A stretch of DNA of 56,394 bases from Sphingomonadaceae bacterium (lineage in GTDB: Bacteria; Pseudomonadota; Alphaproteobacteria; Sphingomonadales; Sphingomonadaceae), in contig JAHDBR010000002.1 of the NCBI GenBank assembly GCA_020630295.1, forward strand, positions 29,045 to 85,438, read 5' to 3'. Every line of letters starts with the position of its first letter. Within the stretch, counting starts at the first letter, position 1. The notes below the pieces were generated by a model. The model had not been told where the DNA came from, did no database searches, and worked only from the letters and a program-made list of their open reading frames with translations. This document shows, piece after piece, positions 33-1,848 of this stretch. The position numbers and the translations under genes are program-made.

Positions 33-248
33 TTAATCGGCGATCAGTGCGACTGCGAGATATACCAGCAGCAGCGAGCCAAAACCTATCAATGTTCCGG
101 CAACGAAGCCGATACGCACTAGGGTAGCATCCACGCCGAAGTAGTTGGCGATCCCGCCGCATACGCCCCAAAGTTTGGCGTTGCTTTTATCCAGGCGAAA
201 ATCCTTTGACGGCGGTCCGCCTGCTGGGTTTTGATCAATCTGGTTCAT
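33..248 (-). CDS. Minimal PspC-domain membrane protein
   Basis: This 71-residue protein is little more than a PspC domain. The typical core KLWGVCGGIANYFGVD lies at about residues 25-40 and is followed by a hydrophobic stretch to residue 69, enough for one long or two short membrane passes. PspC of the phage shock system is an inner-membrane sensor that works with PspB and PspA under envelope stress. Enterobacterial PspC is longer and has a cytoplasmic tail, which is missing here. The ATG overlaps the stop of the upstream micropeptide (ATGA), so translation is probably coupled, and the whole unit lies behind a sigma-54-like promoter. A role in membrane stress is inferred from the domain and the promoter. 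Confidence 0.85.
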   Translation of the reverse strand: MNQIDQNPAGGPPSKDFRLDKSNAKLWGVCGGIANYFGVDATLVRIGFVAGTLIGFGSLLLVYLAVALIAD

Positions 249-376
249 GCCATAACTCCGGCGAGAGCAACGCCCTGCTCTGCAGGTACGATTGCATATG
301 CAAACAGTGCAGCAGAGATTGCTACTGAAGAGACAGCAGCGACGAAGCGGCTGCTCATTTCGTTAAGTTCAAACAT
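245..376 (-). CDS. 43-residue hydrophobic micropeptide, second copy of a tandem pair
   Basis: This short gene reads as 43 residues with a polar start, a single alanine-rich membrane segment at about residues 12-31 and the end AIVPAEQGVALAGVMA. It shares R-x-x-AAVS-x-x-AISA and AIVPA-x-Q with the neighbouring 38-residue peptide, so the two look like duplicates. An AAGGAC ribosome-binding site sits seven bases before the ATG, and its TGA overlaps the PspC ATG. No catalytic or binding motif is visible. It could be a small membrane regulator or a PspB/PspD-like partner, but that is inference from position only. It could also be an exported peptide. Confidence 0.7.
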   Translation of the reverse strand: MFELNEMSSRFVAAVSSVAISAALFAYAIVPAEQGVALAGVMA

Positions 377-421
377 AATATGTCCTTTCTGTTGGAATGT
401 CGATTGCGAGGCTGGTTTGGA

Positions 422-538
422 TCAGGCGATCAAAACGGTCTGGCTGGCTGGTACAATGGCTGCGGCCATGAACACTGCGGAAATTGCGAGAGCCGAAACA
501 GCTGCGAAAACCCGGTTGGTGAAAAGGTCATAAGTCAT
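422..538 (-). CDS. 38-residue hydrophobic micropeptide, first copy of a tandem pair
   Basis: This gene has a perfect AGGAGG ribosome-binding site eight bases before its ATG, which strongly supports translation. The product has a charged start (MTYDLFTNR), one hydrophobic helix at about residues 10-28 and a short tail after AIVPASQ. It is clearly related to the 43-residue peptide 45 bases downstream. It is the first gene after a sigma-54-like promoter and is probably co-transcribed with the second peptide and PspC. I do not recognise a named family. Function unknown; a small stress-linked membrane peptide is the simplest idea. Confidence 0.72.
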   Translation of the reverse strand: MTYDLFTNRVFAAVSALAISAVFMAAAIVPASQTVLIA

Positions 539-594
539 AAAATTATCCTCCTAAGTGATGTTTCCAGCGGACCATTCCGCCATGCCAACCACTT

Positions 595-610
595 TGCAGG
601 GACCGTGCCA
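595..610 (-). promoter_or_regulatory. Sigma-54 (-24/-12) promoter for the micropeptide-PspC operon
   Basis: On the minus strand the sequence is TGGCACGGTCCCTGCA. It has the invariant GG and GC separated by exactly ten bases, and TGGCAC is the exact -24 consensus. The -12 part is CTGCA where the consensus is TTGCA. The start point would fall near 585, leaving a leader of about 47 bases before the first micropeptide ATG at 538. The psp operon of enterobacteria is driven by sigma-54 and PspF, so finding such a promoter before a PspC gene makes biological sense. The activator is not in the window. Confidence 0.75.
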
Positions 611-762: not shown

Positions 763-1848
763 ATGGCTCTCGACCAGATCACCCTCTCATTTTTCCGCAA
801 TCATTCGGAAACCCGCTTGGAAGGAACCCGGCAGTTTAACCTGCTGGTAGGTGAAAACGGTGCTGGCAAAACCAATATTTTGGAGGCTCTGTCTTTGTTT
901 GCGGCAGGACGAGGTTTGCGCCGCGCCGCCTTGAGCGAAATGGCAGATGCCGGTGGCGTAGGCGGTTTTGCTGTCGGCGCGTCCTTGATCGACGATCATG
1001 GGCAAGAGCCCGTCAGGCTTGGCACACATACCGAAGCGGCGCGCCCTGGCAGACGCTTGGTGCGGGTCAATGGCAGCGACAGCAGCGCAGTCGCGCTGGG
1101 GGAATGGCTGGCCATTGGCTGGCTTACCCCTGCAATGGACCGTCTGTTCACGGACTCCGCTGGCGCAAGGCGGCGCTTTGTCGACCGTATGGCTTTGGCG
1201 CTTGATCCTCTCCACGCCCGCCATGCAAGCCGGTATGAGGCGGCCTTGCGTGAACGGAATCGTCTTTTGTCCGATGACCGGCCACCTGAGGCATCTTGGC
1301 TGGAGGGTATCGAGGCGCAAATGGCCGAACATGGCAGCGCACTGGCGCAGGGACGGCTAAGCACGATTTCCCAGATTATGGAACAACTCGCGCTTCTGCC
1401 CGAAGAACCCTTTGCCCGCCCAGCGCTTACCTATGATGCGGGCGGTCCGATCCCGCATGCAGAGTTTGCCGAAGCCCTGCGTGCCAACCGCCAGCGCGAC
1501 CGTGCCGCCGGACGTAGCCTGATCGGCCCGCATCGTGATGAACTGCGCGTATATATGACGGGCAAGAACGCACCGGCGGCTTCATGTTCGACCGGGGAGC
1601 AGAAGGCGATGTTGATCGCGATCATTCTGGCGCATTCCGACCTAGCGGCAAAGGGGCGCCCAAGTCTGCTACTGCTCGACGAAGTTGCCGCCCATCTCGA
1701 TCCGCTGCGCCGCGAGGCTCTGTTCAGCCGGTTGCGCAATAGCGGTGCGCAAGTTTGGCTTACCGGAACCGAGCTGGCACCATTTGACAGCATTCGGGCC
1801 GAAGCCGCTATCTGGAAGGTAACCGGCGGAAGTCTGGACCGCCTTTAG
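763..1848 (+). CDS. recF: DNA replication and repair protein RecF
   Basis: RecF is an SMC-like ATPase that, with RecO and RecR, loads RecA at single-strand gaps. The 361-residue length is normal for the family. Walker A (GENGAGKT) is at residues 30-37, the ABC signature STGEQKAML is at about residues 270-278, and Walker B with D-loop (LLLLDEVAAHLD) is near residues 305-316. The gene stands alone: dnaA, dnaN and gyrB are not beside it, so this is not a classical origin block. It diverges from the micropeptide-PspC operon across 224 bases and runs tail to tail with the esterase gene, with six bases between the stops. Confidence 0.96.
   Translation: MALDQITLSFFRNHSETRLEGTRQFNLLVGENGAGKTNILEALSLFAAGRGLRRAALSEMADAGGVGGFAVGASLIDDHGQEPVRLGTHTEAARPGRRLVRVNGSDSSAVALGEWLAIGWLTPAMDRLFTDSAGARRRFVDRMALALDPLHARHASRYEAALRERNRLLSDDRPPEASWLEGIEAQMAEHGSALAQGRLSTISQIMEQLALLPEEPFARPALTYDAGGPIPHAEFAEALRANRQRDRAAGRSLIGPHRDELRVYMTGKNAPAASCSTGEQKAMLIAIILAHSDLAAKGRPSLLLLDEVAAHLDPLRREALFSRLRNSGAQVWLTGTELAPFDSIRAEAAIWKVTGGSLDRL

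Follow-up and report, generated by a model that had tools for sequence, protein, structure and literature searches.

A short transcription unit that ends in a shortened PspC raises the question of whether it is an envelope-stress unit of its own or belongs to the phage-shock (Psp) regulon of its host. The unit lies on the minus strand of positions 1-700 of the window, i.e., the whole stretch of 56,394 nucleotides analysed, which comes from the 2.44-Mb assembly of a Sphingomonadaceae bacterium. A first-pass annotation had proposed a sigma-54 promoter followed by three coupled genes for two micropeptides of 38 and 43 aa and a PspC of 71 aa. The -24/-12 box TGGCACGGTCCCTGCA, in which ten bases separate GG from GC, was indeed present at 595-610 (read from 610 to 595 on the minus strand), and all three open reading frames (ORFs) were in place on the same strand: microprotein 1 (38 aa, 422-538, AGGAGG upstream), microprotein 2 (43 aa, 245-376) and mini-PspC (71 aa, PspC domain only, 33-248). 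The proposed coupling holds for microprotein 2 and mini-PspC, the ORF of the former overlapping the start of the latter by 4 bp, but not for the two peptides, as the ORF of microprotein 1 ends 45 bp ahead of the start of microprotein 2.

Directly after the PspC stop, a hairpin is found at 11-32 on the minus strand (RNA fold -17.5 kcal/mol, z -4.17). It is possibly a terminator stem, in which no T-run was seen, and it was absent from the terminator-like matches of the terminator scan. A sigma-70-like match at 403-375 on the minus strand was discarded as chance level (1 found vs a mean of 0.7 in shuffles). The divergent neighbour outside the unit is recF (763-1848, plus strand; RecF/RecN/SMC domain PF02463, 64.1 bits), and a divergent recF stands upstream of the unit in 143 of 149 loci. 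Neither PspA nor PspB was found next to mini-PspC, the locus neighbours being recF and other genes. The earlier statement that the locus lacks PspA and PspB is thus true; the genome, however, holds pspABC on another contig, which the first-pass annotation had missed.

The conservation of the unit was assessed in relatives, which are not independent samples. Of 199 genomes of the family searched with PspC, 185 gave matches at E ≤ 1e-6, canonical PspCs included, and counts out of 70 loci refer to the best 70 listed PspC matches from this search. A named set of 80 loci with host names, mostly relatives of Erythrobacter, Altererythrobacter, Porphyrobacter and Qipengyuania, overlaps partly with the genomes of the 70-locus set. 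The box pattern TGGCA[CT]N6TGC[AT], sought in the 650 bp preceding the PspC match, was present in 66/70 loci, compared with a mean of 0.3/70 in 20 dinucleotide-shuffled sets and 0/70 on the reverse strand. Three of the four misses carry a box ending in TTGCG, recognised by eye. L108, the fourth miss, proved to be a canonical psp locus, because a PspB gene (PF06667, 72.7 bits) lies directly 5' of its PspC and pspF is nearby; it has no microproteins before PspC and was left out of all statements on 69 loci. Conservation of the box and of the peptide-PspC order, on which the first-pass annotation had made its proposal depend, was therefore borne out, with the box in 69/70 loci (66 by pattern, 3 by eye) and the peptides likewise in 69/70. 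In the named set, the box was found in 76/80 loci, and one to three peptides accompany it in all 76. Since the box alone is unspecific in its own genome (29 matches vs 11 for the reversed control), the weight of the box evidence lies on its conservation and on the enhancer described below.

Mini-PspC passes the gathering cut-off of the PspC domain PF04024 (63.2 bits, cut-off 25). The earlier description of this PspC as shortened was correct, given that its match to the PspC equivalog model TIGR02978 is confined to positions 3-59 out of 121 and scores 52.5 bits vs a cut-off of 104; the other PspC of the genome passes this model with 132.1 bits. The length of mini-PspC is 69-73 aa in 55/69 loci, its C-terminal end is IAD in 48/69, and one split of the PspC-domain tree, with a modest support of 0.70, parts the 69 mini from 10 canonical sequences. 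These sequence features set the short PspC apart as a subfamily of its own, in which the C-terminal half is missing. A single-sequence AlphaFold2 model of mini-PspC consists of two helices (mean pLDDT 74.5), and none of the solved structures searched matched its profile at E ≤ 1.

Hydrophobic ORFs of 25-60 aa precede PspC in 69/70 loci. Each microprotein has about 40 aa, and a locus carries one (38 loci), two (25 loci) or three (6 loci), so that the 'twin' micropeptides of the earlier description are a feature of this genome but not of its relatives in general. In 26 pairwise peptide comparisons, differences at codon positions 1, 2 and 3 amounted to 177, 91 and 397, and synonymous exceeded nonsynonymous change in each comparison. 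This codon bias, together with the homologues in relatives, upholds the proposal that the micropeptides are real genes and shows, as far as sequence evolution can, that their ORFs are translated. The aligned microproteins follow the approximate consensus M.....S.R..AA.SSLAISA...A.AI.PA......A. Microproteins 1 and 2 of the window are about 50% identical in the alignment and were therefore taken as tandem paralogues. All are of the single-span membrane type. A K or R stands ahead of the most hydrophobic stretch in 91/106 microproteins and after it in just 2/106, and an N-in/C-out orientation is therefore likely. The final residue is Ala in 93/106, and the penultimate one is I, L, V, M or F in 102/106; for comparison, 8 of 48 open frames of at least 200 aa in the window end in Ala. 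Among the copies that do not stand directly before PspC, 30/37 were observed to end in Ala. No curated family of Pfam or NCBIfam matched the microproteins over its cut-off, and the PspG models matched neither the window peptides (Pfam and NCBIfam) nor the 26 aligned members (Pfam).

The components required for a link to the Psp response are encoded in the same genome, all on contigs other than that of the unit: RpoN (PF04552, 224.6 bits), PspF (TIGR02974, 474.9 bits, cut-off 443.55) and pspABC, with pspF divergent from pspA-pspB-pspC. A predicted PspF enhancer, GTGAAAAATCCCAA, lies at 685-698 on the minus strand and starts 88 bp before the box. Its 13-mer GTGAAAAWTCCCA has exactly two sites in the 2.44-Mb assembly, one in the unit promoter and one in the pspA promoter, starting 88-89 bp before the box at both; six further sites are found when one mismatch is allowed. 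Among the 29 boxes of the genome, the 14-mer is matched at 13/14 positions only for the unit and pspA. The next best boxes reach 10/14, which ruled out the enhancer as a general feature of sigma-54 promoters.

The element common to both promoters in relatives, GTGAAAATTCCCAA, was found by aligning promoters on the box and was scored as the best 14-mer match (scores 8-14). Measured from the box, the best match starts at -87 to -89 in 61/66 unit promoters and 28/30 pspA promoters and elsewhere in 5/66 and 2/30, respectively; in the named set, the figures are 68/75 and 7/75. A strict pattern of enhancer plus box matched 58 times across 50 of 296 genomes of the order, all 50 being among the 213 genomes of the family, and 0 times in the reversed control. 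No match was found in the 83 order genomes of other families or in 285 genomes of the class outside the family, and the 3 matching genomes among 289 drawn from the class all belong to the family. When 50 of the matches were read, 23 stood before pspA, 26 before microproteins plus PspC and 1 before microproteins alone; the remaining 8 lie at known unit or pspF-pspA positions. As just 50 of the 213 family genomes carry the strict pattern, the sites vary.

The promoter contains one more element, a palindrome AAAAnGGCnGAATTCnGCCnTTTT at 618-641 on the minus strand, which is centred on GAATTC, pairs at 8/12 positions and abuts the -24 element on its upstream side. Its best centre stands 19 bp before the box in 103/147 unit loci, and the palindrome is weaker in pspA promoters (7/30). 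A second regulator may bind here.

The assignment of the enhancer to PspF rests on its place beside pspF and on co-occurrence; the part of PMC4641369 that was available holds no published PspF site sequence. PspF was present in 30/30 unit genomes tested. It was also present in 6/6 tested genomes with one weak PspC match, so the presence of PspF does not mean that the unit is there. Among the 14 family genomes without a PspC match, a clear PspF homologue was found in 2 (G025 and G082), just an activator of 39-41% identity in 3 and none at the threshold in 9. One locus, L181 (G198:C1:2747400-2750200), has two microproteins downstream of the enhancer and box and then a convergent ruvC, with no PspC. 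PspC is therefore not always the partner of the microproteins, and this peptide-only unit suggests that the peptides are able to act without PspC.

The first-pass annotation had taken the unit as separate from the Psp system. This is not supported, considering that its enhancer is common to the pspA promoter at the same spacing and that pspF-pspABC is encoded elsewhere in the genome; on the same two grounds the unit seems to belong to the PspF regulon as a satellite. We consider it probable that, with this unit, the Psp regulon has a second target, detached from the first, at which PspF and sigma-54 would drive expression of the microproteins and mini-PspC under inner-membrane stress. In E. 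coli, PspA keeps PspF inactive and membrane damage frees PspF, according to the parts of PMC9239133 and PMC3709507 consulted. From the promoter sequences we infer that the unit depends on PspF and sigma-54 and is induced by stress: the release of PspF from PspA upon membrane damage would activate the unit and pspA promoters alike, and PspF bound at 685-698 would activate sigma-54 RNA polymerase at 610-595. The transcript would encode mini-PspC and, ahead of it, two microproteins (one to three in relatives) that span the inner membrane once.

What the products may do is suggested by analogy. In the sections of PMC3068692 consulted, E. coli PspG binds PspC through the membrane part, PspC residues 40-68 suffice for PspG binding, and the leucine zipper of PspC (residues 77-98) is required for the interaction with PspA and for signalling. 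By analogy with PspG and PspC we infer, less firmly, that the microproteins may act as effectors in the membrane and form an assembly with the membrane domain of mini-PspC, and that mini-PspC, rather than relaying signals to PspA, may serve as their scaffold or as a competitor of full PspC.

Several other explanations were weighed against a detached PspF target. Were the sigma-54 unit driven by another enhancer-binding protein, independently of PspF, the genome would offer candidates, as it encodes 9 domain matches to sigma-54 activators, 6 of them strong. However, the pspA promoter beside pspF has the same enhancer, no other box reaches 12/14 or more, and PspF was found in every unit genome tested; a PspF-independent activator is improbable. 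The idea of a mini-PspC left over from decay, preceded by ORFs that are no more than hydrophobic frames arisen by chance, draws on the missing C-terminal half of PspC, but we give it next to no credence: decay was ruled out by the uniform length, the IAD ending and the tree split of the mini-PspCs, and chance frames by the codon-position bias of the peptides.

The microproteins themselves allow two further readings. They might be precursors of secreted signals, with a hydrophobic signal sequence cut after a conserved Pro-Ala and a short hydrophobic peptide released. A motif of the A-x-x-P-A type does follow the span in 76/106 microproteins, and there is a weak match to the Phr signalling peptides (PF11131, 13.8 bits). 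This match, however, is below the cut-off of 25, any match was obtained for just 2 of the 26 members, and divergent members without the motif still keep the span and the C-terminus, which leaves this reading with a low probability. Rather doubtful, too, is a bolder proposal in which the microproteins would be phage-shock effectors of a new class that acts autonomously. They could then make up a PspF-type unit in the absence of PspC, as L181 illustrates, and the N-in/C-out peptides would expose a conserved hydrophobic-Ala tail to a periplasmic tail-specific protease or PDZ protein; turnover of the induced peptides would report or tune envelope damage, and mini-PspC would be a membrane holder. 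The nonpolar C-termini resemble the tails that Prc, a periplasmic protease, prefers; the portion of PMC7481392 consulted also names Prc substrates without such tails.

With the detached PspF target as the preferred reading, the closest known counterpart is pspG, which in E. coli is the one target of PspF known apart from the pspA operon, according to the portion of PMC9239133 consulted. Like pspG of E. coli and Yersinia, the unit would be a detached target of PspF and sigma-54 with a small inner-membrane product; unlike pspG, it has tandem copies of about 40 aa with mini-PspC in the same operon, and its microproteins lack a PspG match in Pfam or NCBIfam. Most likely, judging from these features, the unit is a second PspF target in place of E. 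coli pspG, with different proteins. It resembles canonical pspF-pspABC in the box, in the enhancer and its spacing and in the PspC domain, but differs from it in having neither PspA nor PspB and a PspC without the C-terminal half, while the genome keeps pspABC separately. In lying away from PspA, its PspC is also like the stand-alone PspC proteins of Psp surveys, and multiple PspC paralogues per genome are described in the same surveys, as far as the parts of PMC9239133 and PMC11237479 consulted go.

Within the article text searched, 'sphingo' occurs in neither PMC9239133 nor PMC11237479, and 'Erythrobacter' and 'small membrane' do not occur in PMC11237479. A literature search for PspC plus Erythrobacter found no paper, there was no occurrence of psp in PMC6472365, and the part of PMC5443232 consulted lists a PspC gene in a table for Novosphingobium. 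No study of a unit of microproteins and mini-PspC was among the matches listed, and one may exist beyond them. Many members of one bacterial family appear to carry, instead of pspG, a tandem microprotein family together with a PspC cut down to the membrane domain, and the unit predicts a two-promoter PspF regulon for sphingomonads. It also offers a natural test of the role of the PspC membrane domain without the C-terminal half, and it draws attention to small membrane proteins that gene finders easily overlook.

Two other loci of the same genome were observed in passing. After pspABC, on contig C42 (L013, 2130-3619), five consecutive small ORFs of 83-103 aa each encode a hydrophobic stretch at the N-terminus and a part resembling a coiled coil; their similarity to PspB is weak at best (13-14 bits in two of the five, cut-off 25.6). 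At L118 1501-1516 (C11:24037-24052), a sigma-54-like box, TGGCACGGTGTTTGCT, lacks a PspF-type enhancer (best match 8/14) and stands 43 bp before the ATG of a hydrophobic protein of 78 aa.
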